The notes under the pieces are model-generated. The model made no database searches. It saw nothing but the letters and a program-made list of their open reading frames with translations, and was not told where the DNA came from. The position numbers and the translations under genes are program-made. Shown one piece after another: positions 1,615-31,486 of a stretch of 64,000 nt of DNA; positions within the stretch are counted from its first letter, which is position 1; every line of letters begins with the position of its first letter. This DNA comes from an uncultured Geobacter sp. (GTDB lineage: Bacteria > Desulfobacterota > Desulfuromonadia > Geobacterales > Geobacteraceae): NCBI GenBank assembly GCA_903925075.1, contig CAIYDQ010000136.1, positions 24,215-88,214 of the forward strand, written 5' to 3'.

Positions 1615-1621
1615 CCAGCAG

Positions 1622-2488: not shown

Positions 2489-2532
2489 CCAACCAGCCCC
2501 CCAAATCGAGGGGCGTAATAAAGGAGAAAACA

Positions 2533-2985: not shown

Positions 2986-3064
2986 CGGCTCAAACTCAAG
3001 ACTCAAGACCAAGACTCAAAAATAAGACAAGGCTGCAAGACTCCAAACCAGAAGGGGCTACGAA

Positions 3065-5205: not shown

Positions 5206-5298
5206 CGTAGGTCGCGTTGAGGCACGAAACGCGACGTTGCGCTGTCGGCGACATGGTTACGTTGCGTTTCGCGGTGAACCCGTTCAACGCAACCTACG
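5206..5298. repeat. Inverted pair of dispersed repeat (CGTAGGTYGCGTTGA ... TCAACGCAACCTACG)
   Basis: Outer 15-bp arms 5206-5220 and 5284-5298 with one mismatch; inner CACGAAACGCGACGTT / GTTGCGTTTCGCGGTG also correspond; partial third copy at about 5419-5435. Confidence 0.75.
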
Positions 5299-5455
5299 CG
5301 TCCGCACTCCGCACTCCCTCTACCGCAGGAGGTCGGGGTGGGGAGGTTATGGGGAGAGAGGGTTTCTTGATCCCCGCGTTGCCCCTTAACGTAACGGCAA
5401 TGGTGGGAGAGAAAATCTGTAGGTCGCGTTGATATGGAAATGGTGTTCTGACAAA

Positions 5456-5477
5456 CCTTATAAAATTTATTATACCG
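5456..5477. promoter_or_regulatory. Candidate upstream activating sequence (UAS1) CCTTATAA-AATTTA-TTATACCG
   Basis: 8-6-8 dyad matching the architecture of 16432-16453; about 170 bp upstream of a sigma54 promoter. Confidence 0.6.
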
Positions 5478-5635: not shown

Positions 5636-5651
5636 TGGCATGGTGGTTGCT
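5636..5651 (+). promoter_or_regulatory. Sigma54 (-24/-12) promoter
   Basis: TGGCATGGTGGTTGCT; GG-to-GC spacing is correct; near-consensus TGGCAYG-N4-TTGCW. Confidence 0.75.
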
Positions 5652-5840: not shown

Positions 5841-6881
5841 GTGAAGAAACGATCATTCGTTTACGTCCTGGAAGTCGTGACGTCGCTGGTATTGGTGGGG
5901 GGCCTCTTCTATGCAGGTTTCTTCGTAACGCCGACGGTGCACATCAAGAAGATCGAGAAGTTTCCCTTCGAACGCCGCGACTGTCTGTATTCCTCGGTGG
6001 CGCTGGACGACAAGGGGCAGTCGCTCTGCGTGGCCGGCAGTTACGGCAAGATCCTGCGCTCGGAAGACGGCGGCGCTACCTGGGTCATACAGGCGACTCC
6101 GACCAAGGCCCATCTCCAGAAACTGGTGGCTTGGGACAAGGACAACATGCTCGCCGTCGGCGATGGCGCCACCGTTCTCACCACCAAGGACGGCGGCAAG
6201 AGCTGGACGCAGGTGAAGACCCCGACCTACGAGCGGGGCGACGTGCTGCTGACGGCCTTTCTCGAGCCGGGCGGCCGCGCCTGGATCGCGGGCAACATGG
6301 GGATGGTGCTGGTCAGCGACGACAAAGGCGCCAGCTGGCGGATGGTCCATCCCCAGGAGGATGTGGCCTGGAACGGCGTCGCCGTCACCAAGGGGAGAAA
6401 CGTCTGGCTGGTCGGGGAATCGGGCAAGGTTCAGCGCTCCCGGGACGACGGCAAGAGCTGGGAAAAAATCGTGGTCGCCACCGACGCCAGCCTCAACGCC
6501 GTGGCCTTCGCCGACGAGAACCACGGCGCGATGGTGGGCCTTTCCGGCACCATCCTGGCCACCTCGGACGGCGGCCGGAGCTGGCAAAAGGCCAACTCCG
6601 GCGTGCCGACCCACCTCTACGCCCTCATCTGGGACGGCAAGGGCTACTCCGCGGTGGGGGACGCCGGGGTGATGCTGACCTGCGACGCCAAGGGGATCGA
6701 CTGGAAGGCGGGCAAGCTCGACCCTAACAACTTCGGCTGGTACACGGGGATCGCCAAGGCGGGCGACCTGTATCTGGTCTCCGGCGCCGGCGCCGGCATC
6801 TACTCGAACGGAAAGTGGTTCCCCTTCGTTCCCGGCCAGAAAGAGTACAAAAACATCATGAAAGGGGGCGGCAATGGCTAA
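5841..6881 (+). CDS. YCF48/BNR-repeat beta-propeller, membrane-anchored
   Basis: N-terminal TM helix; repeated SEDGGATW, TKDGGKSW, SDDKGASW, SRDDGKSW, TSDGGRSW; GTG start after AAAGGAGG (the ORF track starts at 5811). Confidence 0.8.
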   Translation: MKKRSFVYVLEVVTSLVLVGGLFYAGFFVTPTVHIKKIEKFPFERRDCLYSSVALDDKGQSLCVAGSYGKILRSEDGGATWVIQATPTKAHLQKLVAWDKDNMLAVGDGATVLTTKDGGKSWTQVKTPTYERGDVLLTAFLEPGGRAWIAGNMGMVLVSDDKGASWRMVHPQEDVAWNGVAVTKGRNVWLVGESGKVQRSRDDGKSWEKIVVATDASLNAVAFADENHGAMVGLSGTILATSDGGRSWQKANSGVPTHLYALIWDGKGYSAVGDAGVMLTCDAKGIDWKAGKLDPNNFGWYTGIAKAGDLYLVSGAGAGIYSNGKWFPFVPGQKEYKNIMKGGGNG

Positions 6882-9255
6882 CCTGTTCGCTGAATTATGC
6901 ATTCGCTGGCGGGTCTCGATAATGGCGGCGATCGTCGCGGTGACGGTGATCCTCGGCTGCTTCGCCCTGCGGCTGGACGTGAGGACCATCTTCACCGATC
7001 TCCAGCCCAGCAATCACCCGTACATCAAGACCAACGAGGAGTTCAAGACCACCTTCGGCGGGGCCAACGTGGTCACCATCATGGTGGAGACCACCAAGCA
7101 GGACATCTTCAACACGGAGACCCTGGCCACCATCAAGCAGATCACCGACGACCTCTTGCAGGTGGACGCCGTCAACCAGTTCCAGATCGTTTCGCTGGCG
7201 TCGAAGAAGCTCAAGAACATCCGGGCCTCGAACCTCGGCATCGAGTCGCTCCCGATCATGTGGCCGGAACTCCCCAAGAACGAGGAGCAGATCAACAAGC
7301 TGAAGAAGGACGTCATCTCCAACCCCATGGTGTACGGCACCTACGTCTCCGGTGACCTGAAATCGGCCGTGATCACGGTTGACTTCATCGACCGGCTGAT
7401 CGACTACGGCAAGGTCTACCCGCAGGTGAAGAAGGTGATCGAGAGGGCCAAGAGGCCGGACGTGGCGATCAAGGTGGTCGGGCAGCCGATCCTGGCCGGC
7501 ATGGTGCTCGATTACTTCCCCGAAACCCTCAAGATCGTCGGCCTGATCGTCGTCACCATCGCCATCATCCTGCTCATGGCCAAGGGGACGCTGCGCGGCA
7601 TGAGCCTTCCCTTGCTGTCGGCCCTGATTTCCTGCGTCTGGACCTTCGGGGTGATGAGCATCATCAAGATCAACCTGGATCCGCTGGCGGTGGTCATCTG
7701 CTTCATCATCTGCGCCCGCGCCGTCTCCCATGCGGTGCAGATCAACGCCGCCTTCAACGTGGAGCGGGAGCAGGGGGGCTTCGACCCGCGCGCCGCGGCG
7801 CGCATCGCCATCGCCAAACTGTTCCGCCCCGGCATGCTCGGGCTGGCGGTGGACTTCGGGGCCATGGTGGTGGTGGCCATGACCCCCATTCCGCTCTTGA
7901 AAAAAGCCGCCATCATCGGCGGCATCTGGATCGCGCTGATGATCGTCTGCACCGTGGTGATGGTCCCGGTGATCCTTTCCTGGTGCAGCGCGCACCACGA
8001 GAAGCGCTTCATCAAGTACAACATGAACCCGATCATGAAGTGGCTCTTGCGCCTGTTCGGGGACATCGCCACCAGCAAGAAGTCGGCGACCGCGATCCTG
8101 GTGGTGGCGTTCATCGCCCTGGCCATATCCGGCTACTACGCGAAGAACATCAATATCGGCGACTCCAACCCGGGCTCCCCCATCCTCTGGCCGAACTCCA
8201 CCTACAACAAGGACGACGCGGCCATAAACTCCAAGTTCCCCGGCTCCGACCGCATGTTCCTGGTGATCTCCGGAAAGCAGGAAAACGCCATGAAGGAACC
8301 CGCGGTGCTGGAGAACATCACCCGGTTCCAGCAGTACATAGAGGCCCAGCCGGAGATAGGGGCCACCGTTTCCCTGGCCGACATCATCCGCCCGGTCAAC
8401 ATGACGGTGCGCGAGGGGAACCCGCGCTTCTTCAGGCTCGGCGAGGACGCCGGCGTGAACGGCGAACTGCTCTTCCTGGCCCTGACCGGCTCCGATCCGG
8501 GCGACATCGACCGCTTCACCGACGACACCTTCAAAAACGGCTCGGTGCTGATGTTCTTCCGCGACCACAAGGGGGACACCATCCGCCGCGCGGTGCAGGC
8601 GATCAAGGATTACGCCGCCGCCAACCCGATGGCCTCCGCCTCCTTCAGGCTTTGCGGCGGCATGATCGGCGTTTTGGCCGCCATCAACGAGGAGATATTC
8701 TCCGGGCAGATCCAAAGCATCGCCCTGTCGCTTTTACTTTTGTTCCTCTTCTGCGCCTTTGCCTATCGCTCCACCCAGGCGGGACTCTTCTTCCTCCCCA
8801 TGGTGCTTCTCTCCAACGCCATCACCTTCTGCTTCATGAACTGGTTCGATATCGGCCTGAACATCAACACCCTGCCGGTGGCGGCGCTGGGGATCGGCCT
8901 TGGGGGCGACTATGCCTTCTACATAACGGACCGGATCAGGGAGGGGTATGCCGAGACCGGCGATCTCTCCAAGAGCATCCATTTCGGGCTGATGACCGCC
9001 GGTCGAGGGGTCATGATCACCGCCACCACCTTGGTCATCTCTGTGATCTTCTGGTACTTCTTCTCGTCCCTGCGCTTTCAGGCGGAAATGGGGCTGCTGA
9101 TCGCCGTTTGGATGGCGGTTTCCGCCGTCAGCGCGCTGCTGCTGATCCCGTCCATGATCTATGTTTTCAAACCGCGATTCGTCGTCGTGGCCGGAAAAGC
9201 CGACGAACGACCGGAGGAGGTGAGCGATTGCGAACTGGTTGCACTGGCTGAGTAG
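6874..9255 (+). CDS. MMPL/RND-superfamily transporter
   Basis: Two blocks of TM segments with large extracytoplasmic loops; TLPVAALGIGLGGDYAFYITDRIREGY; overlaps preceding gene. Confidence 0.9.
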   Translation: MANLFAELCIRWRVSIMAAIVAVTVILGCFALRLDVRTIFTDLQPSNHPYIKTNEEFKTTFGGANVVTIMVETTKQDIFNTETLATIKQITDDLLQVDAVNQFQIVSLASKKLKNIRASNLGIESLPIMWPELPKNEEQINKLKKDVISNPMVYGTYVSGDLKSAVITVDFIDRLIDYGKVYPQVKKVIERAKRPDVAIKVVGQPILAGMVLDYFPETLKIVGLIVVTIAIILLMAKGTLRGMSLPLLSALISCVWTFGVMSIIKINLDPLAVVICFIICARAVSHAVQINAAFNVEREQGGFDPRAAARIAIAKLFRPGMLGLAVDFGAMVVVAMTPIPLLKKAAIIGGIWIALMIVCTVVMVPVILSWCSAHHEKRFIKYNMNPIMKWLLRLFGDIATSKKSATAILVVAFIALAISGYYAKNINIGDSNPGSPILWPNSTYNKDDAAINSKFPGSDRMFLVISGKQENAMKEPAVLENITRFQQYIEAQPEIGATVSLADIIRPVNMTVREGNPRFFRLGEDAGVNGELLFLALTGSDPGDIDRFTDDTFKNGSVLMFFRDHKGDTIRRAVQAIKDYAAANPMASASFRLCGGMIGVLAAINEEIFSGQIQSIALSLLLLFLFCAFAYRSTQAGLFFLPMVLLSNAITFCFMNWFDIGLNINTLPVAALGIGLGGDYAFYITDRIREGYAETGDLSKSIHFGLMTAGRGVMITATTLVISVIFWYFFSSLRFQAEMGLLIAVWMAVSAVSALLLIPSMIYVFKPRFVVVAGKADERPEEVSDCELVALAE

Positions 9256-9298
9256 GAGAACCCTCCTCCTGCGGAAACGGGGAGGCGGGTGCTAGGTA

Positions 9299-9333
9299 GG
9301 GGACTGGCTCCGCGGAACGCGGTGCCTGTCCCC
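9299..9333. repeat. REP-like hairpin GGGGACTGGCTCCGC-GGAAC-GCGGTGCCTGTCCCC
   Basis: 15-bp arms, 2 mismatches, in the gap between the MMPL and DUF1302 genes. Confidence 0.75.
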
Positions 9334-9407
9334 CTAGAGGATCGGAAAAGCGCCTGCTGAACAACTGACGTGTGATGACTATTTGACGATTACCGGAGGA
9401 TTTCTCA

Positions 9408-11030
9408 ATGAAATTAAGAGTACTGACGAGCATTCTGAGTTTGTGCTGCATGATCTGCTGCCTGGCGCCGGGGCAGTCGCGGGCCGACGACGAGCAGGCG
9501 GCCCCGGTGGCGGACGGCGCGGTCGCCTTGGCTGAGACCGGGGGCTTGGCCCCGGCGGCGGACAACACGGTCGCCGTGCTGGAGCCCGAGACCCCGGCCG
9601 AAGCGGCGATGGAGTTTCCGGCCCCGGCGCCCAAGCCCGGAATTTTGAACGGTTTCGAATTGACCGGCTACGTGCGGCATTACATGAGCTTCAACCTCAA
9701 CAACGTCCCGGAAACGGCGGGCAACGACGCCGGCAAGATGTCCATGAACCGGCTGTCGCTGCTCACCCAGCTGAAGGGACCGATCGGGCCGGCGAACCTC
9801 ACCCTGATCGGCCGCCTCTCGCGGGAGCAGATGACCAGTTACCTGAAGGACCTGCAGAGCCTGGCGCGCCAGACCTCGCCGCAAACCGACTTCGCCAGCA
9901 AGTACGACGAGAACGAAATCAGGGAATTCTACCTGGACATGCCGATCGGCGATCGGATCAAGCTGCGGGTGGGCAAGCAGCAGGTAGTCTGGGGCGAGAC
10001 CGACTTCTTTCAGGCCATGGACGTGGTGCACGGCTATGACTACTCCTGGCGCTCCTTCCTGGAGCCCGAGAACGAGGAGTGGCGCAAACCGCTGATCCTC
10101 GGCAACGCCCAGATAGCCGTTCCCGAGCTGCGCGGCAACCTGCAGCTGCTGGTCCGGCCGGGCCTCGACCGCGCCCGGGACGTCGGCAACACCTTCGACA
10201 TGTTCGGCGGCCGCTGGGCGCAAAACGGCTCCCGCGGGTTCAACCTCAACGACAACAACGTGGCCCTCACCCACTTCGAATTGCCGGTCGACTTCCATCA
10301 CAAGGACGGCGACACCGACAAGGCCCACTACGGCGGGCGCTGGATGGGGACCATCGGGGCCAACAAGGACCTGGCCTACAGCCTGAACTACTACCATACC
10401 CAGGCCCAGAATCCGGTGGTCTTTCAGGACCCGACCGCTCCCATCGGGCTCGCCTTCATTTTCCCCACCATCGACATCTACGGCGGCACCCTGAGCGGCA
10501 AGATCCCGCTCGACTTCCTGGACACCATCTTCCGGGCGGAGGTGGCCTACGTGCCGAACCAGCCGCTGAACAACGCCGCCTTGGACGTGGTCAAGAAGGA
10601 CGCCGTGCGCAGCATGTTCGGACTGGACACCAACCTGCGCCTGGAGCGCATCCTCGGCACCTGCAACGCCAGCATGCTGAGTCTGCAGATCTTCGACACC
10701 TTCATCACCGATTACAAGGCGAGCCAGCAGATCAACACCGCCTTCGGCTCCAGGCAGAAGGAGCACGAGACCCTGCTTACCGGCATCTTCACGCTCCCCT
10801 ACGCCTCGGACAGCATCAGGGGGCAACTGGTGGCGGTGCAGGATCTCAGCAGCAACGGCGGCATCGTGGCGCCCTCGATCGAGTTCATGATGGGACCGAG
10901 CTGGCGCGTCAAGCTGGAGGGGGACATCTTCTACGGCGGCAAGAGAAACGACGCCGGCAACCAGGCCAGCATGTTCGGCTCCTTCGCCCACAGCAGCCAG
11001 GTCATGTCCCGGGTCACCTATCAGTTCTAG
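9408..11030 (+). CDS. DUF1302-type outer-membrane beta-barrel protein
   Basis: Signal peptide; RVGKQQVVWGETDFFQAMDVVHGYD; C-terminal aromatic residue (VTYQF). Confidence 0.8.
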   Translation: MKLRVLTSILSLCCMICCLAPGQSRADDEQAAPVADGAVALAETGGLAPAADNTVAVLEPETPAEAAMEFPAPAPKPGILNGFELTGYVRHYMSFNLNNVPETAGNDAGKMSMNRLSLLTQLKGPIGPANLTLIGRLSREQMTSYLKDLQSLARQTSPQTDFASKYDENEIREFYLDMPIGDRIKLRVGKQQVVWGETDFFQAMDVVHGYDYSWRSFLEPENEEWRKPLILGNAQIAVPELRGNLQLLVRPGLDRARDVGNTFDMFGGRWAQNGSRGFNLNDNNVALTHFELPVDFHHKDGDTDKAHYGGRWMGTIGANKDLAYSLNYYHTQAQNPVVFQDPTAPIGLAFIFPTIDIYGGTLSGKIPLDFLDTIFRAEVAYVPNQPLNNAALDVVKKDAVRSMFGLDTNLRLERILGTCNASMLSLQIFDTFITDYKASQQINTAFGSRQKEHETLLTGIFTLPYASDSIRGQLVAVQDLSSNGGIVAPSIEFMMGPSWRVKLEGDIFYGGKRNDAGNQASMFGSFAHSSQVMSRVTYQF

Positions 11031-11088
11031 CCGCCGCGGATAAGGGACGGCGAAACGGCATCAACCAATCAACCAGGAGGAAAAAAGG

Positions 11089-12372
11089 ATGAAAAGCCAG
11101 TTTTCTAAAACCATCGTCACAACAGCGGGGCTGATGGCGCTGGCGGCGCTTGTCGGCGGCGCCGCCTTGGCCGGCGAGGTTCCGGTCGGAACGGTTCTCA
11201 ACAAGGCCAATCTGGCCGCCATGGAGAAGGAGACCTTCCAGGGGATGCCCATCGGCAAGCTTCTGACCGACAGCCAGAAGATGTGGATCAAGGATTACAA
11301 CCTGAAGATGAAACTGGGGAAACCGACCGAACTCAAGGTCGATCCCGCCTATCAGGCCGCCACCAAGAAGTACGCCGGACAGGCGACCCTGGATCCGGCC
11401 AAGAAAACGGTCGGCAACTACAAGGCGGGCATCCCCTTCACCAACGTCGACCTCAAGGATCCGGACGCCGGCTACAAACTTGCCTGGAACCAGTATTACG
11501 CCAACCCGGTGATGGGCGACAACTGGATTGCGCTGGGCGACGTCACCATCACCGAGTCCAAAAAAGGGGTGATCGACCATTTCGAGGCGATCAGCGCCAA
11601 GCTGGCCATGGAAGGACGCACCACCGGCGGCGCCCCGCTGGTGGGGAACGCCGGGGACCACGCCCAGTACCTGCTGGTGCTCACCAAGCCCTTCGATCTC
11701 GCCGGGCTCGGCATTTACACCAAGCAGTACAGTAACGGCAACATCGACGACGCCTGGGCCTACGTCAAGTCCATCCGCCGCACCAGGCGCGTCGCCGGCG
11801 GCAAGAGCTGGATGGATCCGCAGCCCAAAATGGACCTCCTGAACGACGACAACCAGGCCGTCAACTGCTACCCGCTCATGTACAAGGGTTGGAAATTCGT
11901 GGAGAAACGCTGGATACTGGCGGTGGTGAACGCCCCCAACCCCAACGTCAGGCACGCCGTCTTCAAGGACAACATCGAGCAGTCGGCCCCCTACTGGAAC
12001 CCGTCCAACGCCGTCTGGGAGCCGCGCGAGGTCTACGTGCTGGAGGCCACCATGCCTCCCGAGCACCCCTACTCCAAGAAGGTGCTCTACCAGGACGTCA
12101 AGTACCCCATGTACCTGCAGGGCGATCTCTATGACCGTAAGGGGAGCCTGTGGCGCCTGTGGAGACAGACCTACAGCCAGTTCACCGCCAAAAACGGCAA
12201 GCCCGGCATAGCCCTGTACAGCACCCAGGCGATCGACTTCCAGCGCACCCGCGCCACCTACATCGACATGGCCCACACCCAGTTGAACAACCCCGAGTTC
12301 AACGACAAGGCGTTCACGCCGGAGATGCTCTCCTTGGCGGGGAGCGGCGGTCTCGACAAGTACATGAAGTAG
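11089..12372 (+). CDS. DUF1329 family periplasmic/outer-membrane protein
   Basis: Signal peptide; YVKSIRRTRRVAGGKSWMDPQPKMDLLNDDNQAV; VLEATMPPEHPYSKKVLYQDVKYPMYLQGDLYDRKGSLWR. Confidence 0.85.
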   Translation: MKSQFSKTIVTTAGLMALAALVGGAALAGEVPVGTVLNKANLAAMEKETFQGMPIGKLLTDSQKMWIKDYNLKMKLGKPTELKVDPAYQAATKKYAGQATLDPAKKTVGNYKAGIPFTNVDLKDPDAGYKLAWNQYYANPVMGDNWIALGDVTITESKKGVIDHFEAISAKLAMEGRTTGGAPLVGNAGDHAQYLLVLTKPFDLAGLGIYTKQYSNGNIDDAWAYVKSIRRTRRVAGGKSWMDPQPKMDLLNDDNQAVNCYPLMYKGWKFVEKRWILAVVNAPNPNVRHAVFKDNIEQSAPYWNPSNAVWEPREVYVLEATMPPEHPYSKKVLYQDVKYPMYLQGDLYDRKGSLWRLWRQTYSQFTAKNGKPGIALYSTQAIDFQRTRATYIDMAHTQLNNPEFNDKAFTPEMLSLAGSGGLDKYMK

Positions 12373-12418
12373 CGCTTCGGGATGTGATAAACAGGCGACA
12401 ATAATAAAGAAATATGTT

Positions 12419-12458
12419 ATCCGTTGTGCGACGGCCGGGGTGCCGTCGCGCAACGGAT
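12419..12458. terminator. Strong hairpin ATCCGTTGTGCGACGGC / GCCGTCGCGCAACGGAT after the DUF1329 gene
   Basis: 17-bp arms with one mismatch, 6-nt loop; no clear plus-strand T-tract. Confidence 0.55.
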
Positions 12459-12527
12459 ATTGCTTATCCAGCGCGGTTGTCGGCGGGTCGTGCGCCGCTT
12501 TCCGGATGACGCCTAAGGTTGAAAGTT

Positions 12528-14780
12528 ATGAGCTGGTCCAAAATCGAAATAGTGGTGGCGGGAAGGTCGGGACCGAGCGTCGAGGAGCTGGTCGCCATCC
12601 TGGGCAAGGGGGGGTACGCGGCCAGTACCGCCGACAGCGCGGCGGCGCTCCTGGAATCGGTGGTCTGCGGCGCTCCCTCGCTGGTACTGCTCGACCTGAG
12701 CATCTCGCAGGACCCCTACGCGCTTTGCCGCGGCTTGAAGGCCGACCCCGCCAGCTGCGAGCTGCCGGTGGTCTTCGCCGGCTCGCCCGAGGCGGGCCTC
12801 GATCGCGCGCGCCTTTTCGAGGCCGGCGGCGGCGCCTGGGTCTCTCCCCCCTTCTGCGAGCAGGAACTGCTCGCCGTGGTGAAAGCGCAGATCGATCTGA
12901 GCCGGGCGCAGGCGCGCCTGCAAAAACAGACCGCCCTGCGGCTAAAGGCCGAACAGGAACTAAAGGAGTGCGATCAGCGCCTGCAATCGATCGTGGACAA
13001 CGCGGCCGCCATCATCTACGTGAAGGACGATCAGGGGCGCTACACCCTGATCAACCGCAAGTACGAACTGCTGTTCCACGTCAAGCGCAAGTACCTGATC
13101 GGCAAGACCGACTACGAGATCTTCACCAAGGAGGCGGCCGACGGTTACCGGCACAACGACCAGTTGGTGCTCAAGTCCGGGCAGGCCATCCAGGTGGAGG
13201 AGGACGTCAGCCATGACGACGGCATCCACTCCTACATCTCCATCAAATTCCCGCTGCAAAACGTCAACGGCGAGAACAACGCCGTGTGCGGCATCTCCAG
13301 CGACATCACCCGGCGCAAGGAAGCGGAAATGCTGCTGCACCAGGCCAAAGAGGCGGCGGAATGCTCCAACCGCGCCAAGAGCGTCTTTCTCGCCAACATG
13401 TCCCACGAGCTGCGCACCCCGTTGAACGCCATCCTGGGCTTTTCGCAGCTCATGCTGCGCGACGCCGCCATGTCCGCCGCCTCCAGAAAGCATCTTTCCA
13501 CCATCAACCGCAGCGGCGATCATCTGCTCTCCCTGGTGAACAACGTGCTGGAGGTGAGCCAGATCGAGGCCGGGCGCAGTTCCCTGCACCTGACCACCTT
13601 CGACCTTTGGCGCCTGATCGAGAACATCATCGAGATGTTCGCCATCAGGGCCAGCCAGAACCGGGTGCGCTTCAGCGTCACCAGGCAAAAAGAGGTGCCG
13701 CGCTATGTGGTTGGCGACGAGCGGAAGGTGCGCCAGATACTGATCAACCTGTTGGACAATTCGGTGAAATTCACCGAGAAGGGGCACATCTCCCTGCACC
13801 TCTCCGTGCTGGGCGGGCAGTTGCCGGCGCCGGAGGCGGGAGGCGGCAAGCCGCGCACCGTGCTCTTCGAGGTGGAGGACACCGGGGCCGGCATCGCCCC
13901 GCAGGAAGTGGAGCGGCTTTTCCAGCCGTTCGAACAGACGCTGAGCGGCAAGAGCGTCGGCGGCACCGGCCTGGGGCTCTCCATCAGCCGGGAGTACGCG
14001 CGGCTGACCGGCGGCGACCTCACCGTCGCCAGCGAGCCCGGCAAGGGGAGCGTCTTCCTGTTCAGCTTGCGCTGCCAGGAGGGGAGCCCCAAGGACGTGA
14101 CCTGCGTCAAGGATGGCCGGCGGGTGATCGGCCTGGCCGAGGGGAGCGGGGAGATAACCGTCCTGGTGGTGGACGACAAGCAGGACAGCCGCACCTTCGC
14201 CACCGAGCTCCTTACCTCGGTGGGCTTCAGAACCCGCGAGGCCTGCAACGGCGAGGAGGCGTTGGCCGCCTTCGCCAAGGAGCGCCCCGACCTGGTGCTG
14301 ATGGACATGCGCATGCCGGTGATGAACGGTTATCAGGCGACCCGCTGCATGAAGGCTGCCGGCGGCGAGAAAAAGACCCCCATCATCGCGGTCAGCGCCA
14401 GCGCCCTGGACGAGCAAAAAAACGAGATCCTGGAGTCGGGGGCCGACGAGTTGATCTGCAAGCCCTTCAAGGACTCCGAGCTGTTCGCGGCCATCGCCAG
14501 GCTGCTCGGCGTCAGTTACCGCTACCAGGACGAGCGGGCCGTCCCCGGCGCCGCCAGGGCGTCGGCCCTGCCGTTGGCGGCGCGGCTGGACGCGCTGCCG
14601 GCAGAGCTTCGCCAGGAACTGCGGACGGCGCTTTTGGCGCTCAACGTCAGGGCCGTGCGCGCGGTGGCCGAGCGCGTGCGCGCCGTCGACCGCGCGCTGG
14701 GCGAACTGATCGAGGAGTTCGAGAAAGGCTTCCGTTTCGAGGAGTTGCTGGATCTGCTGGATCGAAAGCGACGCCGCTAG
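12528..14780 (+). CDS. Soluble hybrid histidine kinase (degenerate REC - PAS - HisKA - HATPase - REC)
   Basis: PAS IVDNAAAIIYVKDDQGRYTLINRKYE; H-box MSHELRTPLNAILGFSQL; N-box NLLDNSVKF; GTGLGLSIS; C-terminal VLVVDDKQDSR...LVLMDMRMP...CKPF; no TM segment. Confidence 0.9.
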   Translation: MSWSKIEIVVAGRSGPSVEELVAILGKGGYAASTADSAAALLESVVCGAPSLVLLDLSISQDPYALCRGLKADPASCELPVVFAGSPEAGLDRARLFEAGGGAWVSPPFCEQELLAVVKAQIDLSRAQARLQKQTALRLKAEQELKECDQRLQSIVDNAAAIIYVKDDQGRYTLINRKYELLFHVKRKYLIGKTDYEIFTKEAADGYRHNDQLVLKSGQAIQVEEDVSHDDGIHSYISIKFPLQNVNGENNAVCGISSDITRRKEAEMLLHQAKEAAECSNRAKSVFLANMSHELRTPLNAILGFSQLMLRDAAMSAASRKHLSTINRSGDHLLSLVNNVLEVSQIEAGRSSLHLTTFDLWRLIENIIEMFAIRASQNRVRFSVTRQKEVPRYVVGDERKVRQILINLLDNSVKFTEKGHISLHLSVLGGQLPAPEAGGGKPRTVLFEVEDTGAGIAPQEVERLFQPFEQTLSGKSVGGTGLGLSISREYARLTGGDLTVASEPGKGSVFLFSLRCQEGSPKDVTCVKDGRRVIGLAEGSGEITVLVVDDKQDSRTFATELLTSVGFRTREACNGEEALAAFAKERPDLVLMDMRMPVMNGYQATRCMKAAGGEKKTPIIAVSASALDEQKNEILESGADELICKPFKDSELFAAIARLLGVSYRYQDERAVPGAARASALPLAARLDALPAELRQELRTALLALNVRAVRAVAERVRAVDRALGELIEEFEKGFRFEELLDLLDRKRRR

Positions 14781-14865: not shown

Positions 14866-16410
14866 ATGAGTCACGCAACGCCGGACGGCAACGAGCCTTC
14901 ACTTTCCACACTGCTGGGAAACGTCCTGGTGGTGGACGACACCTTCCAAAACCTCGACCTCCTTTCCGAGATCCTGGTCAAGGACGGCTTCGACTTCCGC
15001 CCCGCCATGAGCGGCCGCATGGCCCTGCTGTCGGTCGGCAACGTGCTCCCGGATCTGATCCTGCTCGACGTCCTGATGCCGGAGATGGACGGCTTCGAGG
15101 TCTGCCGCCAGTTGAAGATGGACCCGCTCACCCGCGACATACCGGTCATTTTCATCAGCGCCCTGGAAGAGGTGGTCGACCGGGTGAAGGCTTTCGCCGT
15201 GGGGGGGGTGGATTTCATCTCCAAGCCATTCCACGCCGAAGAGGTCCTTGCCAGGGTGAGGACCCATCTGGCCCTGAGGAGGTTGCAGATAAACCTGGAG
15301 AAGAAGAACGCCCAGCTGCGGCACGAAATAGCCGAGCGCGAGAAGACCGAGGAGGAACTTTCCCGGTTTCAGGAGCATATGGCGGGCGTCTTGGAAAGAA
15401 AACTGCTGCACCCTGAGGCGTTCAAACAGCTCATCTCGCAAAGCGAAACGATGCGCGCCATCTTCCAGTACATCGAGGCCCTGGCCTGCAGCTCCGAGCC
15501 GGTGCTGATCATCGGGGAGAGCGGAGTCGGCAAGGAACTGATCGCCAGGGCCATTCACGAGGTGAAGCAGCCCGACGGCCCCTGGGTGCCGATCAACTGC
15601 GCGGGCCTGGACGACAACATGTTCTCCGACACCCTTTTCGGTCACGTCAAGGGGGCCTTCACCGGCGCGGACCAGGCGCGCTCCGGCATGATCGAGAAAG
15701 CCGCCGGCGGAACGCTGTTTCTTGACGAAATCGGCGATTTGAGCCTCGTCTCCCAGATAAAACTACTGCGCCTCTTGCAGGAAAAGGAATACGTCCCGCT
15801 GGGGAGCGACCGGATCATGAAGGTGGCGGCGCGCATAGTGGTGGCGACCAACGTCAACCTGGAACAGAAGCAGAAAAACGGCGAGTTCAGGAAGGATCTC
15901 TATTTCCGGCTCTGCACCCACCAGATCGAGATCCCCCCGCTGAGAAAGCGTCCCGAGGACCTCCCCGTTTTGCTCGACCACTTCCTGGGCGAGGCGGCGC
16001 GCGACATGAACAAGAAGAAACCGACCCCCCCGGCGGAGCTTGCCGTGCTGCTGTCCAACTACCATTTCCCCGGCAACATCCGCGAGTTGCGCGCCATGGT
16101 GTACAACGCGGTGAGCGTTCACGGCGGGAAAAAACTCTCCATGGAGCTCTTCAAGAAGGCCATGGGACTTGCGGACAAGGAGAAGGATGCCGGCGCCGAC
16201 CCGGCGCCGAAACAGCCGCGGCTGGCCTTTTTCGACACCCTGCCGACCCTCAAGGAAGCGACCGAACTGCTGGTGGACGAGGCGATACAACGCACCAACG
16301 GCAACCAGTCGATCGCGGCCAAGCTCTTGGGCATCACCCAGCCGGCGCTGAGTAGCCGCTTGAAGATCTGCGCGCACAAACGCAGTGCTAAAATGCTCGC
16401 CGATAGCTGA
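14866..16410 (+). CDS. Sigma54-dependent response regulator (REC-AAA+-HTH)
   Basis: VLVVDDTFQN...LLDVLMPEMDG; GESGVGKELIARAIH; GAFTGAD; FHFPGNIRELRA-type motif; C-terminal Fis-like NQSIAAKLLGITQPALSSRLK. Confidence 0.93.
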   Translation: MSHATPDGNEPSLSTLLGNVLVVDDTFQNLDLLSEILVKDGFDFRPAMSGRMALLSVGNVLPDLILLDVLMPEMDGFEVCRQLKMDPLTRDIPVIFISALEEVVDRVKAFAVGGVDFISKPFHAEEVLARVRTHLALRRLQINLEKKNAQLRHEIAEREKTEEELSRFQEHMAGVLERKLLHPEAFKQLISQSETMRAIFQYIEALACSSEPVLIIGESGVGKELIARAIHEVKQPDGPWVPINCAGLDDNMFSDTLFGHVKGAFTGADQARSGMIEKAAGGTLFLDEIGDLSLVSQIKLLRLLQEKEYVPLGSDRIMKVAARIVVATNVNLEQKQKNGEFRKDLYFRLCTHQIEIPPLRKRPEDLPVLLDHFLGEAARDMNKKKPTPPAELAVLLSNYHFPGNIRELRAMVYNAVSVHGGKKLSMELFKKAMGLADKEKDAGADPAPKQPRLAFFDTLPTLKEATELLVDEAIQRTNGNQSIAAKLLGITQPALSSRLKICAHKRSAKMLADS

Positions 16411-16431: not shown

Positions 16432-16453
16432 CCGTATAACCTTTTTTATACGG
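16432..16453. promoter_or_regulatory. Candidate upstream activating sequence (UAS2) CCGTATAA-CCTTTT-TTATACGG
   Basis: Perfect 8-bp inverted arms with 6-bp spacer; about 195 bp upstream of a sigma54 promoter; same architecture as 5456-5477. Confidence 0.65.
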
Positions 16454-16635: not shown

Positions 16636-16651
16636 TGGCATCTTCTGTGCT
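16636..16651 (+). promoter_or_regulatory. Sigma54 (-24/-12) promoter
   Basis: TGGCATCTTCTGTGCT with GG/GC spacing as expected; followed by ATA as at 5651. Confidence 0.65.
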
Positions 16652-16812
16652 ATAGAACGGTGTATTGACGACGTCGCGTCGACGTACCTTATCCGCGGCC
16701 GTAAGAAAATAGCCGATCGGTCCTGATCCGGAAAAAGGCCGGCAGCTCCACCTTCCGGAGCGGCCTTGCCGGAAGCCGCGGCCGATCGAGACAAAAAATG
16801 GGGGGAGTATGT

Positions 16813-18921
16813 ATGTATCGTATCGGGGTTGATGTGGGCGGGACCTTTACCGACTTTTTGCTCTACGACGACAGCGGTGCCTCGAGCGTCTTTAAGACGC
16901 CCAGTACCCCTGCCGACCCGTCCATAGGCGTGTTGAACGGCTTTGGCAAGATGGCCGAAAAAGCCGGGGTGAGCCTGGAGGAGTTCATAGCCGGGGTGGA
17001 GCTGATCGTGCACGGCACGACGGTGACCACCAATGCGGCGCTGACCGGCAACGGGGTCAAGACCGGGCTGATAACCACCCTGGGTTTTCGCGACATTCTG
17101 GAGATGCGTCGCGGCTTTAGGGAAAGCGCCTACGACAACAAGATGACGCCCCCAAAGCCGCTGGTGCCGCGCGACCTGCGCCTGGGAGTGGAGGGGCGCG
17201 TGACCTTCGACGGTGCGGTTGCCACCCCGCTCGACGAGGCGGGGCTCCTGGACGCCATCGCGGTGCTGAAGCGGGAAAAGGTCGAGGCGGTCGCCGTCTG
17301 CTTCATGCATTCCTATGCCAATCCCGAGCACGAGCAGGCGGCCAAGAAGCTGATCGAGCGCGAACTGCCGGAGCTGTTCCTGACGGTCTCCTCGGAATTG
17401 CTCCCCCAGGCGCGCCTGTACGAGAGGGTCTCGACCTCGGTGCTTAACAGCTACGTGGGGCCGATCCTGCGCAACTACCTCGGCTACCTGGCCACGGCGC
17501 TCGACAACATCGGCTTCTCCGGCGTGCTCTTGATCATGCAGTCCAACGGGGGGGTTGCGACGCCGGAGGCGACCTCCAAGACCCCGGCCATGACCCTTCT
17601 GTCCGGCCCCGCGGGGGGACCCGCGGCCGGCATCGCCTTCACCGCGGTGCAGGGCTACGAGCAGTGCATCACCGTCGACATGGGGGGGACCTCCTTCGAC
17701 GCCGCCCTGGTGCAGAACCGGGAGCCGCTGTTGCGAAGCGACGGCTGGATCAACCGGCAGCGGCTCGCCCTGCCGATGCTCGACATCCACACCATCGGCG
17801 CGGGGGGCGGCTCCATCGGCTGGATCGACGAAGGGGGACTCCTGCACATGGGGCCGCAAAGCGCGGGCGCGGTTCCGGGCGCCGCCTGTTACGGCAAGGG
17901 AGGGAAGCTCCCGACCTGCACCGACGCCAACCTGGTGCTCGGCTACCTCAATCCCGGCTACTTCCTGGGGGGGGACATGGGGCTCGACTTCGAAGCCGCC
18001 CGCACCGCCATCGAGGAGCATGTCGCCAAGCCGCTGGGTCTGAGCGTCGAGGAGGCGGCGGCCGGCATGTTCCATCTGATGAACGTCAACATGGCGGCGG
18101 GGCTGCGCGAGATCTCCATCAGCCGCGGCATCGACCCGCGCGAATACCCGCTGGTGGTGGCAGGGGGCGCGGGTCCCATCCACGGCGGCATGATCGCCCT
18201 GGAGATGGAGATCCCGGTGGTGCTGGTGCCGCGCGAATCCTCCATCTTCTGCGCCTCCGGCATGCTCCGCTCCGACCTGAAACACTCCTACGTGCGCACC
18301 TACCACGTCTTGGGATCGCGGGCCGATCAGGGGGTGATGCTGAAGAGCTTCGCCGAACTGGAGCAGGAGGGGCGTCGGATACTGAAAACTGAAAAGGTCG
18401 AGGACGAAAAGCGCCTGCGCATGGAGCATGCGGTGGATATGCGCTACCTCGGGCAGCATAACGAGATCACGGTCGGCTTCCAGCTGGACGAGTTCGAGAA
18501 GGGGGGAATCGAGTTCCTGCGCGAGCGGCTGCACCAGGAGCACGACCGGCTTTACGGCTACGCGCTGCGCGGCTCGGACACGGAGCTGGAAATCATCAAC
18601 CTGCGCCTGGTGGCCGTGGGGATCACCGAAAAGCCGCAGCTGCAGGTGACTGAGCTTAGCGGCGCGGACGCCACGGCGAGCCTCAAGGGGACGCGGCCGG
18701 TCTACATCCCCTCGGTCAAGTTCTTCCGCGACATCACGGTCTACGACGGCGAGACGCTCGCCTACGGCAACCGGGGGGAGGGGCCGGCCATCATCGAGCA
18801 GATCACCACCACCACCTTCGTGCCGCCCGAGTACGACTTCATCGTCGACGCGGCCGGGACCTTCAGCCTCTACCTGCGCAGCAGCGCCGACGAATATTTA
18901 AGGAGGGTTTTGCCGTCATGA
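16813..18921 (+). CDS. Hydantoinase A / acetone(acetophenone)-carboxylase-type ATPase subunit
   Basis: YRIGVDVGGTFTDFLLYD; VHGTTVTTNAAL; TVDMGGTSFDAAL; SGPAGGPAAGI; start chosen by SD (the ORF track starts at 16798). Confidence 0.88.
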   Translation: MYRIGVDVGGTFTDFLLYDDSGASSVFKTPSTPADPSIGVLNGFGKMAEKAGVSLEEFIAGVELIVHGTTVTTNAALTGNGVKTGLITTLGFRDILEMRRGFRESAYDNKMTPPKPLVPRDLRLGVEGRVTFDGAVATPLDEAGLLDAIAVLKREKVEAVAVCFMHSYANPEHEQAAKKLIERELPELFLTVSSELLPQARLYERVSTSVLNSYVGPILRNYLGYLATALDNIGFSGVLLIMQSNGGVATPEATSKTPAMTLLSGPAGGPAAGIAFTAVQGYEQCITVDMGGTSFDAALVQNREPLLRSDGWINRQRLALPMLDIHTIGAGGGSIGWIDEGGLLHMGPQSAGAVPGAACYGKGGKLPTCTDANLVLGYLNPGYFLGGDMGLDFEAARTAIEEHVAKPLGLSVEEAAAGMFHLMNVNMAAGLREISISRGIDPREYPLVVAGGAGPIHGGMIALEMEIPVVLVPRESSIFCASGMLRSDLKHSYVRTYHVLGSRADQGVMLKSFAELEQEGRRILKTEKVEDEKRLRMEHAVDMRYLGQHNEITVGFQLDEFEKGGIEFLRERLHQEHDRLYGYALRGSDTELEIINLRLVAVGITEKPQLQVTELSGADATASLKGTRPVYIPSVKFFRDITVYDGETLAYGNRGEGPAIIEQITTTTFVPPEYDFIVDAAGTFSLYLRSSADEYLRRVLPS

Positions 18922-20717
18922 TGCATTCCATAGATCCGATCCTGGTTACCGTGATCCAGCGCCGCTTGAAGGCGATCACCGAGGAGATGGGGCTGGTCAT
19001 GCTGCGCACCGCCCGCTCGCCCATTCTTTCCGAGGCCCGCGATTTCGTGACCGGCCTCTACAACGCCAAGGGCGAGCTGCTGGAGCAGACGGCCTACATC
19101 CCGATCCTGGCCTTCGCCGTGCCGCTCTCCATAAAGTACATGGTGGAGTATTTCGGGGACGACCTCTACCCGGGCGACGTCATCATCCACAACGATCCCT
19201 TCACCGGCGGCAACCAGCCGACCGACGTCAAGATCGTGCGCCCGATTTTCCACCAGGAGCAGTTGGTGGGCTTTTCCTGCATCAACGGCCACCAGGCCGA
19301 CGTGGGGGGGGCGGTAGCCGGCGGCTACAACCCGCGGGCCACCGAGATCTGGCAGGAGAGCCTGCGCATCACCCCGGTGAAGCTCTATGAAAAGGGGGTG
19401 AAGCGGCGCGACGTCTGGGATCTGGTGTTCGGCAACATCCGTTTTCCGATCGTAATGGAAGACATCCAGGCCGCCATGGGAGGGTGCGCGGTGGGCGAGC
19501 GGGAACTGTTGAAACTCTACAAGCGCTACGGGCAGCCCCGTTTCGAGGCGCATCTGCGCCATCTCTACGACGCCACCGAGCAGCAGATGCGGGCCGAGAT
19601 ATCCGCCATGCCCGACGGCGTCTACCACGGCGCATCGACCATCTACTACGACGGCTTCAACCTCGGCTCCACCATGGAGATAAAAGTCGCCGTCGCCATC
19701 AGCGGCTCCGACATCTCCTTCGACTTTGCCGGCACCGCGCCGCAGACCATGGGCTTCGTCAACGCCCCGCTCGGCTCGAGCATGACCTCGGTGATCCTCA
19801 CCCTGCTCATGTGCCTGAAGAACCCCGAGCTCCCCCAAAACGCCGGCATGACCCGCCCCATCAGCGTGCAGATACCGGAAGGGAGCATGCTGAACCCGGT
19901 CTACCCGGCCGCCAGCACCTTCGGCAACCACATGTCCGACCAGATATCCTCCGCCATCTTCAACGCCATGGCCCAGGTGGTGCCGGAGCGGGTCACCGCC
20001 CCCTGGAACCCGCTCTTCGCCATCGCCGCCGTGGGGTACAACGACCGGATCCAGCGCCCCTTCGTCGACATCCTTTTCAACGCGCTCAAGGGCGGGGGTG
20101 GCGGGACCCGCGGCGCCGACGGCTACGACCACATCGGCCTGATCGGCTGCGGCGGCGGCCTCCTGGCGCAGGACCCGGAGATGTTCGAGATGAAGGACCC
20201 GCTTTTCCTGCACAGCTTCGAGTACAAGCAGGACTCCGCCGGCGCCGGCGAGTGGCGCGGGGGGCTCGGGGTGGAGCTGGAGATGGAATTTCTCAACGAC
20301 GGCAATCTGATCAGCGCCTTCGGCGATGGCATCGATCCCGGTTCCGAGGCCGGCGGGCTTCTGGGAGGAGGCTCCGGCATCAACAACTCCGGCGCCTTGA
20401 CCTACGCCGATGGCCGGGTGCACACCTGCACCAACAAGGAGATGGTGGTCAACATCCCCAGAGGGACCCGCTGGCGCCAGGTGGCGGGGGGAGGCGGCGG
20501 TTACGGCGACCCCTTGAGGCGCCCGATCGACCGGGTAGAGCAGGAGGTGCGCTACGGCGTCCTGTCGAAAGAGGCGGCGCGCGACAAGTACGGCGTCACT
20601 ATCGATCCGCTTACCATGACGGCGGACCGGTCGGGCGAGAGGAGCCTGCCCGTTGCCCGCAGCTGCGGCGAAGCGCCGGTCTCGGCGACCGACGGCGCGG
20701 CGGCGGCCGCCGTTTAG
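18918..20717 (+). CDS. Hydantoinase B / oxoprolinase family subunit
   Basis: MLRTARSPILSEARDFVTGLYNAKGELLEQ; GDVIIHNDPFTGGNQPTDV; C-terminal GGGGYGDPLRRP; overlaps hydantoinase A. Confidence 0.9.
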   Translation: MMHSIDPILVTVIQRRLKAITEEMGLVMLRTARSPILSEARDFVTGLYNAKGELLEQTAYIPILAFAVPLSIKYMVEYFGDDLYPGDVIIHNDPFTGGNQPTDVKIVRPIFHQEQLVGFSCINGHQADVGGAVAGGYNPRATEIWQESLRITPVKLYEKGVKRRDVWDLVFGNIRFPIVMEDIQAAMGGCAVGERELLKLYKRYGQPRFEAHLRHLYDATEQQMRAEISAMPDGVYHGASTIYYDGFNLGSTMEIKVAVAISGSDISFDFAGTAPQTMGFVNAPLGSSMTSVILTLLMCLKNPELPQNAGMTRPISVQIPEGSMLNPVYPAASTFGNHMSDQISSAIFNAMAQVVPERVTAPWNPLFAIAAVGYNDRIQRPFVDILFNALKGGGGGTRGADGYDHIGLIGCGGGLLAQDPEMFEMKDPLFLHSFEYKQDSAGAGEWRGGLGVELEMEFLNDGNLISAFGDGIDPGSEAGGLLGGGSGINNSGALTYADGRVHTCTNKEMVVNIPRGTRWRQVAGGGGGYGDPLRRPIDRVEQEVRYGVLSKEAARDKYGVTIDPLTMTADRSGERSLPVARSCGEAPVSATDGAAAAAV

Positions 20718-20751
20718 GAACCCAAGGAACCCAAGGAGCCAAAGGAGCCAA
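20716..20751 (+). repeat. 4 x 9-bp tandem repeat AGGAACCCA/AGGAGCCAA between hyuB-like and mutase genes
   Basis: AGGAACCCA AGGAACCCA AGGAGCCAA AGGAGCCAA, starting inside the TAG stop. Confidence 0.8.
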
Positions 20752-20774
20752 CGAGCACCCCCAGGAGAAAAGAC

Positions 20775-22385
20775 ATGACCGATTCACTGCAAAGCATCTT
20801 CAAGACCAACAGCGGGCTAGATATCAAGGAGCTCTATACGCCCGAGGACATAAGCGGCTTCGATTGCGACATGGACCTCGGCGTGCCGGGGGGATTCCCC
20901 TTCACCCGCGGCCCTTACGAGGGGATGTACCGCACCCGGGTCTGGACCCGCCGCTTCCAGGTGGGCTTCGGTTCCCCCCAGGATAGCAACCAGCGCATAA
21001 AGTACCTGATGAACAACGGCGCCAACGGCTTCGTCATCACCATCGACCTCCCCACCTCGTACGGCTTCGACTGCGACGATCCCATCTCCCGGGGTGAGGT
21101 GGGTGTCACCGGGGTGGCGATCAGCACCCTGGAAGACATGGAGGCGCTCTACGAGGGGTCGGCGCCGGACAGCGTCTCCTACGCGCTGTCGATCCGCCCT
21201 CCGGTCTCCTCGGTTACCCTGGCGATGCTGGCGGTGGTCGCCAAGCGCCGCAACATCGCCTTCAAGGACGTGATCGGCACCCAGCAAAACGACCCCTTTT
21301 ACCAGATGAGCGGCGGGCTGTTGCAGACCATCCGGCAGTTTTTCCCCCTGGAGGGGACGCTGCGCCTCTGCCTGGACAACATCCAGTTCATCTCCGAGAA
21401 CTTCCCCCGCCTGAACTGGATGGTGACCAACGGCTACAACCTGCGCGAAACCGGCATCGACGCCATCCAGGACGGAGCCTTTTCCCTGGGGCACGCCTTC
21501 GACATCTACCGCATGGCCAAGGACCGCGGTCTGGACGTGAACCTCTTCCCGCGCAAGGCGTCCTTCTTCCTCTCCTCCTCCATCGACTTCTTCGAGGAGA
21601 TCGCCAAGTTCCGCGCCATGCGCAGGCTCTACGCCAAGACCATGCGCGACAAGTTCGGGGCGACCAACCCGGAATGCTGGCGCATGCGTTTCTCGGTGCA
21701 GTCGGCGGGCAACTCGCTCACCACGCAGCAGCCGCAGATCAACGTGGTGCGCTCCGGCATCGAGGCCATGGCGGCGGTGTTCGGCGGGGCCCAGTCCATT
21801 CATCTCTGCTCCTACGACGAGGGGCACGGCCTCCCCACCGAGGAGTCCTCGCGCATGGCGCTGCGCACCCAGCAGATCATCGCCTACGAGAGCGGCGTTA
21901 CCAAGACCATCGATCCCCTGGCCGGCTCCTATTACGTGGAGAGCCTTACCAACCAGATGGAGGCCGCCATCAGCGCCAAGATCGCCGAAGTCGACGCCCT
22001 GGGGGGGATGGCCAAGGCGATCCAGGACGGCTGGCTGGAGCAGGAGATCAACAAGGCCCGCCTGCAGAACCAGCGGGTGCTGGACAACGGCGAGAAGACC
22101 CTGGTCGGGGTCAACCGCTTCAAGATCGACCCCGCCGAGGAGACCCCGATCAAGATCCACAAGCTGAAGGCCGACGAATGGGGCGAGCGCCGCGGCGAAT
22201 ACCTGCGCAACTACCGCAAGGAGCGCGACGCGGGCAAGTGGGCCCAGGCCATGGAGCAGATCGACCGGGCCTGGAAAGCCGGCGACAACATGGTGCCGGT
22301 GCTGATGAACGCCCTGGAAAACAAGGTGACCATGGGCGAATGCCATGAGGCGATGCGCCAGGCGCAAAACTGGTCTTTCCGCTGA
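20775..22385 (+). CDS. B12-dependent acyl-CoA mutase large subunit (divergent methylmalonyl-CoA mutase family)
   Basis: GFPFTRGPYEGMYRTRVWTRRFQVGFG; GTQQNDPF; AMAAVFGGAQSIHLCSYDEGHGLPTEESSRMALRTQQIIAYESGVTKTIDPLAGSYYVE. Confidence 0.9.
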   Translation: MTDSLQSIFKTNSGLDIKELYTPEDISGFDCDMDLGVPGGFPFTRGPYEGMYRTRVWTRRFQVGFGSPQDSNQRIKYLMNNGANGFVITIDLPTSYGFDCDDPISRGEVGVTGVAISTLEDMEALYEGSAPDSVSYALSIRPPVSSVTLAMLAVVAKRRNIAFKDVIGTQQNDPFYQMSGGLLQTIRQFFPLEGTLRLCLDNIQFISENFPRLNWMVTNGYNLRETGIDAIQDGAFSLGHAFDIYRMAKDRGLDVNLFPRKASFFLSSSIDFFEEIAKFRAMRRLYAKTMRDKFGATNPECWRMRFSVQSAGNSLTTQQPQINVVRSGIEAMAAVFGGAQSIHLCSYDEGHGLPTEESSRMALRTQQIIAYESGVTKTIDPLAGSYYVESLTNQMEAAISAKIAEVDALGGMAKAIQDGWLEQEINKARLQNQRVLDNGEKTLVGVNRFKIDPAEETPIKIHKLKADEWGERRGEYLRNYRKERDAGKWAQAMEQIDRAWKAGDNMVPVLMNALENKVTMGECHEAMRQAQNWSFR

Positions 22386-22436
22386 GCAGGTCCGGGAAGC
22401 GGGGAGGGGATGTGGCTATGCCAAGGAGGTGTGCGA

Positions 22437-23489
22437 ATGGATAGTTGTAAACGGATTCTGCTGGCAAAGATGGGGCTCGACTGCCACGACACGGGCATCA
22501 TCACCGTGCTCAGCATGCTGCGCGACAGTAAGTACGAAGTAATTTACCTGGGGCTGCACAACACCGCCCAGCAGGTGGTCAACGCCGCCATCCAGGAAAG
22601 CGTGGACGCCATCGGCATCAGCTTTCTGTCGGGCCAGCACATGACCCAGATGAGGGAGCTGATGGCGGAGCTCAAGCTGCGCGATTTCCCGGTCGCGGTC
22701 TTCTGCGGAGGGGTGATCCCTCCCGACGACGCCCTGGCCTTGAAGGCCTTGGGGGTGAAGGAGGTGATCCTCCCCGGCACCCTGAGCCGCGAGGTGGTGG
22801 CCCTGGTCGAGAAGGCCATCCGGCCGGAGCCGCAGCCGGAAGCGCCGGTCGGGGCGCGCCCGGAACTGAGCGTCACCCCCCTGGAGCGCTGCCTGAAGGC
22901 GATCGAGCACGGGGACCGGGAGCTTGCTGCCCGGGAGGCGCAGGCCATCTGGGACGAATGGCGCCCGCTGCACGACATGTACGTGGAGATGGCGGGCCTC
23001 TTCGCCACTTACGTCCGCGACAAGCTCGGCGAGGCGGCGGTGGAGGACGCCTGGCGCGTCATCGGGGAGAAGCTTTGGAAGCCGGTGCTGATGCATTTCA
23101 AGGAAACGGGCTCGACCAAGCTTCTGGTGGAGGTCTACGCGCAGTTCCTGCGCGCCCACGGCCACGACTTCGCGGTGGAGTCGGACCAGGAGAAAACCAC
23201 CTTCACCATGAAGTACTGCGCGTCGGGCGGCATGCTGATGCGCGACGGCAAAAACGAGGGGTGCGGCCGCCACCCGCTCGACGTGGGGGTGATGAACACC
23301 AGGGCCGACTGGACCTTCAACCGCGCCCTTTCCGCCTACTGCGTCCATACCCCCTTGTGGATGGACATCATGCCGCGCGAGTGGGGGTGGGACGTGTTCA
23401 AGTCGACCTTCGGCCGCCAGTTCGACGACGACGGCAAAGCGGTGAACGAGCCTTGCATCGCGGTGATCTACCATGAACCACAGTCTTGA
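22437..23489 (+). CDS. B12-binding mutase small subunit fused to an uncharacterised C-terminal domain
   Basis: AKMGLDCHDTGIITVLSMLRDSKYEVIYLGLH (DxHxxG); GVKEVILPGTLSREVV; about 220 extra residues with conserved-looking Cys/His/Trp; SD AAGGAGG before ATG 22437 (the ORF track starts at 22410). Confidence 0.88.
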   Translation: MDSCKRILLAKMGLDCHDTGIITVLSMLRDSKYEVIYLGLHNTAQQVVNAAIQESVDAIGISFLSGQHMTQMRELMAELKLRDFPVAVFCGGVIPPDDALALKALGVKEVILPGTLSREVVALVEKAIRPEPQPEAPVGARPELSVTPLERCLKAIEHGDRELAAREAQAIWDEWRPLHDMYVEMAGLFATYVRDKLGEAAVEDAWRVIGEKLWKPVLMHFKETGSTKLLVEVYAQFLRAHGHDFAVESDQEKTTFTMKYCASGGMLMRDGKNEGCGRHPLDVGVMNTRADWTFNRALSAYCVHTPLWMDIMPREWGWDVFKSTFGRQFDDDGKAVNEPCIAVIYHEPQS

Positions 23490-26765: not shown

Positions 26766-26795
26766 CCGACAGATTACAACCAAAGGAGCTAGCGG

Positions 26796-28748: not shown

Positions 28749-28750
28749 AC

Positions 28751-30247: not shown

Positions 30248-30263
30248 CTACAGGGAGTAACAC

Positions 30264-31472: not shown

Positions 31473-31486
31473 GGAAAGGAGTCCAT

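Follow-up and report, generated by a model that had tools for sequence, protein, structure and literature searches.

An envelope module and a catabolic operon under a shared, genome-unique operator in an uncultured Geobacter: a candidate pump for a hydrophobic pathway compound

A four-gene envelope module, found in a 64,000-nucleotide stretch of an uncultured Geobacter genome (the window), has an operator in common with a catabolic operon downstream of it, and co-regulation of the two is strongly indicated. We hold, with moderate confidence, that the module is a substrate-induced, envelope-spanning pump that would remove a hydrophobic compound of the pathway from the membrane, a reading in which we infer both the outward direction and the cargo. 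Because the control element is common to both units and unique in the genome, the cargo is probably the substrate or the product of the operon.

An earlier note on this DNA had described YCF48, MMPL/RND, DUF1302 and DUF1329 proteins as one module at 5841–12372. The search confirmed this assignment: all four components (YCF48 corresponding to COG4447) are encoded together, and each passes its Pfam cut-off (Table 1). The YCF48 and MMPL genes overlap by 8 bp, the MMPL and DUF1302 genes are separated by 152 bp and the DUF1302 and DUF1329 genes by 58 bp, and an AGGAGG-type ribosome site lies immediately 5′ of the YCF48 start codon, GTG at 5841. The hairpin directly 3′ of the module is a probable transcript end, though no T-run follows it. 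Palindromic, repeat-like intergenic elements were seen 5′ of the module (5208–5300) and between the RND and DUF1302 genes (9289–9340).

Table 1. Features of the envelope module, its control region and the neighbouring operon (window coordinates).
Feature	Position	Strand	Evidence or remark
Dyad 1, CCTTATAA-N6-TTATACCG	5456..5477	.	Upstream of module; matches dyad at 16432
Module sigma-54 -24/-12 promoter, TGGCATGGTGGTTGCT	5636..5651	+	Exact consensus match
YCF48/BNR beta-propeller, AmeC-like	5841..6881	+	PSII_BNR/YCF48 PF14870, 86.4 bits (cut-off 27)
RND/MMPL transporter, HAE3-like, AmeD-like	6874..9255	+	MMPL, 81.7 bits (cut-off 20.5)
DUF1302 outer-membrane beta-barrel (predicted), AmeA-like	9408..11030	+	PF06980, 53.7 bits (cut-off 23.2)
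DUF1329 periplasmic LolA-like protein (predicted), AmeB-like, signal peptide	11089..12372	+	PF07044, 163.4 bits (cut-off 23.1)
18-bp perfect hairpin, directly 3′ of module	12418..12459	+	-36.3 kcal/mol, z -4.6
Hybrid histidine kinase: unassigned N-terminal region, PAS, HisKA, HATPase, REC	12519..14780	+	Domain search
Sigma-54-activating response regulator, REC-AAA-HTH	14866..16410	+	Domain search
Dyad 2, CCGTATAA-N6-TTATACGG, perfect palindrome	16432..16453	.	Upstream of catabolic operon
Operon sigma-54-like promoter, TGGCATCTTCTGTGCT	16636..16651	+	One mismatch
Ten-gene catabolic operon	16798..33505	+	4.4 kb downstream of module

Localisation signals were predicted on all four components. The YCF48 propeller is probably periplasmic and anchored in the inner membrane through a hydrophobic N-terminal segment, as judged from hydropathy. 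The DUF1302 protein has a predicted signal peptide and a low-complexity N-terminal extension, and it is divergent, with a score far below the 360–450 bits of five other DUF1302 proteins of the same genome. AlphaFold2 models of the DUF1302 and DUF1329 proteins, of moderate confidence (mean pLDDT 62–63), predict an outer-membrane barrel for the former, with structure matches to AlgE and porins at E about 1e-9, and a periplasmic protein of the LolA superfamily for the latter, with structure matches to 3bk5, 9tp6 and 4z48, the last of which is itself a DUF1329 protein.

The best family for the RND transporter is TIGR00921 (HAE3; 6.5e-39), at 133.6 bits against a cut-off of 351.9, and the protein also has a weak sequence match to HpnN. 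It carries S285-H286 in TM4 and D679-Y680 in TM10, which a profile alignment of the two RND halves pairs with each other, and Ser-His in TM4 with Asp-Tyr in TM10 was found in every one of the 46 module RNDs aligned. In canonical HAE3, MmpL and HpnN transporters, in contrast, an Asp-Tyr proton-relay pair is expected in TM4 as well as in TM10, and L035, an ordinary HAE3-like protein encoded elsewhere in this genome, carries one in each half. Since the TM4 Asp is missing in the whole group, proton coupling of the module RNDs is an assumption. The module also differs from HAE1 tripartite efflux pumps, because neither an HlyD-type membrane-fusion domain nor a TolC-type outer-membrane factor domain was found in the four module proteins.

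The earlier note had further read a sigma-54 promoter of the module's own and a dyad common to module and operon, and both were recovered. The -24/-12 site of the module, 190 bp upstream of the YCF48 start codon, agrees with the consensus at 11 of 12 positions and ranks first among 35 upstream regions. A sigma-54 promoter was rejected as a general trait of such modules: it recurs but is not universal, with four of the 35 regions, two of them from the window, scoring at least 10/12 or close (0.69 expected by shuffling). The site at the operon is weak by itself because the window, with one mismatch allowed, holds five sites where 3.1 are expected, and one-mismatch sites were rejected as stand-alone evidence. 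The dyad, of the pattern CCKTATAA-N6-TTATACSG, lies 5′ of both units. When the 6.55-Mb genome was searched with this pattern, itself built from these two sites, no further exact or one-mismatch copy was found. The shuffle test, which allows for that choice and scanned all spacers of 0–12 bases, gave a dyad score of 28 against a shuffle maximum of 26, so that none of 400 dinucleotide shuffles of both upstream regions reached the observed value. The dyad and the -24 element lie 158 bp apart at the module and 182 bp apart at the operon, a spacing typical of sigma-54 activator sites. The sigma-54 response regulator encoded between the two units probably binds the dyad upstream of the module, and presumably both copies. 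A close relative of the hybrid histidine kinase of the window (812 bits) is encoded on the same contig (G000:C136; L070, 8875–11229), about 16–17 kb upstream of the module.

The operon encodes HyuA, HyuB, the large subunit of an acyl-CoA mutase, its B12-binding subunit, an AMP-ligase, an acyl-CoA dehydrogenase, an OYE/BaiCD-like reductase, a second AMP-ligase, a thiolase and an HCDH-ECH protein. HyuA is nearest to 5-oxoprolinase and N-methylhydantoinase, followed by acetophenone carboxylase. The mutase (20775–22385) is nearest to 2-hydroxyisobutyryl-CoA mutase and has a small insertion after the GTQQNDPF motif. In our own reading of the alignment, it has Gln at the position that corresponds to Ile90 of HcmA; the acyl-CoA specificity may thus be new. 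The C-terminal part of the B12 subunit (22794–23489), about 210 residues with conserved Cys and His, matched no Pfam family. We infer that the operon acts on a ketone or a branched hydrophobic acid. A literature search for a matching anaerobic pathway found nothing convincing, and the operon looks like a new one.

The linkage between module and operon recurs in an alphaproteobacterium. On a contig of a Telmatospirillum metagenome-assembled genome (L097, L098), nine of the ten operon genes occur together, with 74% identity for the mutase, 66% for the thiolase, 62% for the ligase and 51–52% for HyuA, and a module of the same gene order and lineage lies about 1.2 kb after the OYE gene. In this organism the C-terminal part of the B12 subunit is a separate gene (L097, 6900–7532). 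One further Rhodospirillales genome encodes the mutase (75%) on a 9-kb contig that ends before linkage could show. HyuA homologues lie near modules or DUF1329 genes on two further contigs (G000:C87 and G184:C53) and in two gammaproteobacteria, and none was found in 40 control loci. The closest relatives of the module (55–77% identity; L008, L009 and L011), by contrast, are flanked by POR genes on one side and an AOR gene on the other; their fetched stretches hold neither the operon nor the two-component pair; the promoter and dyad of the window were likewise not found upstream of the YCF48 genes of seven relatives. We therefore rejected the idea that the operon always travels with the module: the association is real but not obligatory, and the word dedicated, which the earlier note used of the module as a substrate handling system, was too strong. 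POR and AOR genes also lie just upstream of the module in the window (283–4972), and an AOR gene lies near a related module in L115; these genes possibly mark a second type of pathway served by the lineage. That the closest relatives adjoin POR and AOR genes would fit a chance neighbourhood, with module and operon merely close and the dyad devoid of regulatory meaning. We consider this highly improbable, since the genome has the dyad 5′ of these two units alone, no shuffle reached its score, and the linkage recurs in Telmatospirillum.

To place the module among its kind, we use the lettering of AmeABCD, in which its order is C-D-A-B. Modules arranged in this way are also present in Desulfuromonadales, Marinobacter, Arhodomonas, Thiodiazotropha and Telmatospirillum and on a plasmid of strain EbN1, whereas A-B-C-D is the order of most modules in the class and of most other modules in the window genome. 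In a tree of 48 RND proteins, among which AmeD (CDM25262) was not included, a group of 15 C-D-A-B modules and one C-D-B-A module (support 97/94) is deeply split from a group of the A-B-C-D type (100/99), and by this tree the C-D-A-B arrangement forms a deep sister lineage to A-B-C-D. The window genome has about eight or nine separate Ame-type modules (contigs C24, C32, C83, C87, C103, C136, C162, C299 and C321, several at contig ends). The module on C162 (L063) has a third order, B-A-D-C, and its RND lies on a long branch. In Thiodiazotropha, a second YCF48-RND pair was seen about 8 kb past a complete C-D-A-B module (L014, 4830–21233). Two other loci (L111 and L112) hold DUF1302-DUF1329 pairs with no RND or YCF48 gene nearby, flanked by histidine kinase and sigma-54 regulator genes.

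In the class sample, where DUF1329 places were counted at 100 bits or more, a DUF1302 gene lies within 3 kb and on the same strand in at least 84 of 99, and several of the places with no DUF1302 nearby lie at contig ends. The claim that these families recur next to catabolic genes was supported by co-occurrence statistics. Around 57 DUF1329 loci fetched from Desulfuromonadia and Gammaproteobacteria, several of them from one genome, nine catabolic probe families gave 50 genes over 1,056 kb. The 796 kb around 40 control loci, hand-picked in the larger contigs, held 4, a density roughly nine times lower. At least one catabolic gene was present at 20/57 module loci and 4/40 control loci (Fisher p = 0.004).

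The remaining 37 module loci lack all probed catabolic families, and this type of module serves many unrelated pathways. Both observations, together with the LolA-like fold of DUF1329 and the weak match of the RND to HpnN, would also suit a role in envelope maintenance, in which the module delivers a lipid of the cell's own to the outer membrane, much as HpnN does, and adapts the envelope to hydrophobic compounds while leaving the pathway substrate untouched. We regard such a role as improbable. DUF1329 is absent from 17 of the 18 same-genus genomes sampled, which argues against a basic function in the envelope; the operator occurs at no genes other than the module and operon of the window; and the number of modules in the genome suggests cargo-specific copies.

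The closest tested system is AmeABCD of Castellaniella defragrans, in which AmeA is a DUF1302 protein, AmeB a DUF1329 protein of the LolA superfamily, AmeC a COG4447 protein and AmeD an HAE3 RND (PMC6394551). Its deletion led to poorer growth on apolar monoterpenes, lower monoterpene tolerance and more accumulation of Nile Red, whereas efflux kinetics were almost equal in mutant and wild type (PMC6394551); the evidence for export, dye accumulation, is thus indirect. The two systems have four families in common, predicted as barrel, LolA-type periplasmic protein, propeller and RND. AmeABCD sits in a catabolic island for hydrophobic compounds and the window module 4.4 kb upstream of a catabolic operon whose substrate may be hydrophobic, with no monoterpene genes recognised beside it. 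The module further differs in its divergent DUF1302 protein, in its own two-component sigma-54 control and in its order, A-B-C-D having been described as the conserved cassette order of the AmeD lineage (PMC6394551). The most fitting description is of a system that works in the manner of AmeABCD and comes from a sister lineage, the likeness being drawn from the four families.

Other systems combine the same families. Operons of COG4447, COG1033, PF07044 and DUF1302 belong to predicted AphR, AphS and AphT regulons of aromatic catabolism in Betaproteobacteria, where AphR is a member of the XylR/DmpR group (PMC6449761). Co-regulation with catabolism is thus predicted there as well, although by regulators of XylR or LysR type, among others, and not by a two-component response regulator. 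The 'Nanopod' cluster of the benzene-degrading ORM2a, highly expressed during anaerobic growth on the hydrocarbon (PMC13101534), resembles the module in its DUF1329, YCF48 and MMPL proteins and a porin-like protein; it additionally carries a universal stress protein gene, its substrate is benzene, and its authors left the direction of transport open. On plasmid 2 of A. aromaticum EbN1 (NC_006824.1), one informative match of only two in a search of a plasmid collection, a module of the same order and lineage as that of the window lies within a beta-oxidation cluster, and its neighbours differ, comprising an aldo/keto reductase, thiolases and an OB-fold protein, with neither HyuAB nor the mutase.

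These comparisons bear on the direction of transport. In an uptake system, the barrel and DUF1329 would draw a substrate of low solubility off the surface or out of the outer membrane and the RND would pass it inward, feeding the operon. Growth of Pseudomonas putida on Tween 20 requires PP_0765 (DUF1302), PP_0766 (DUF1329), PP_2018 and PP_2019 (PMC10866462). The four genes are split between two loci; besides the DUF1302 and DUF1329 proteins they encode a periplasmic protein and an efflux transporter, with correlated phenotypes. Uptake or handling at the surface explains this requirement no less well than export does. Deletion of a Delftia DUF1329 gene impaired growth on phenanthrene, as cited in PMC13101534. 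Co-regulation with the operon also favours uptake, and canonical export coupling is not assured for RNDs that lack the TM4 Asp. On the other hand, small hydrophobic compounds usually cross membranes unaided. Those RND/HAE3 relatives whose structures have been solved carry annotations as exporters or transporters of lipids (MmpL3, HpnN), and AmeABCD behaves as a tolerance system (PMC6394551). Uptake is in our judgement a possible but less than likely explanation. The suggestion that the module handles the pathway substrate is partly supported, and uptake and export are not separable here. The statement that the role of these families is not established holds for cargo and direction, and it is qualified by AmeABCD, a tested relative for which the data favour export or tolerance (PMC6394551).

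In the export pump that we favour, the RND protein (6874–9255), driven by the proton gradient, would lift the hydrophobic compound out of the inner membrane, and the anchored YCF48 propeller would keep the complex together. Between the pump and the DUF1302 barrel of the outer membrane, the LolA-like DUF1329 protein would carry the compound through the periplasm or serve as a bridge for it. The hybrid kinase and the sigma-54 response regulator would sense a pathway compound, with the regulator binding the dyad at both promoters. The net job would probably be to limit a toxic substrate or hydrophobic intermediate in the membrane, holding it at a tolerable level while the operon consumes it. Against this reading stand the nearest relatives, which carry the module without the operon, and the gene order, which differs from that of AmeABCD. 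A bolder proposal, which we put forward as speculative and think unlikely, is that the C-D-A-B lineage constitutes a distinct RND class with an asymmetric proton relay (the TM4 Ser-His), a substrate-specific conveyor that is inherited and regulated as a unit with an undescribed anaerobic pathway that pairs HyuAB with a B12 acyl-CoA mutase whose specificity is new.

The four families are widespread next to pathways for oily compounds, and in this Geobacter a genome-unique operator ties one such module to a single operon. The TM4 Ser-His is a signature by which such pumps can be recognised among MMPL proteins, and the swap opens a mutational test of how they are energised. The module and its operon thus provide a clean system in which cargo and direction can be settled.
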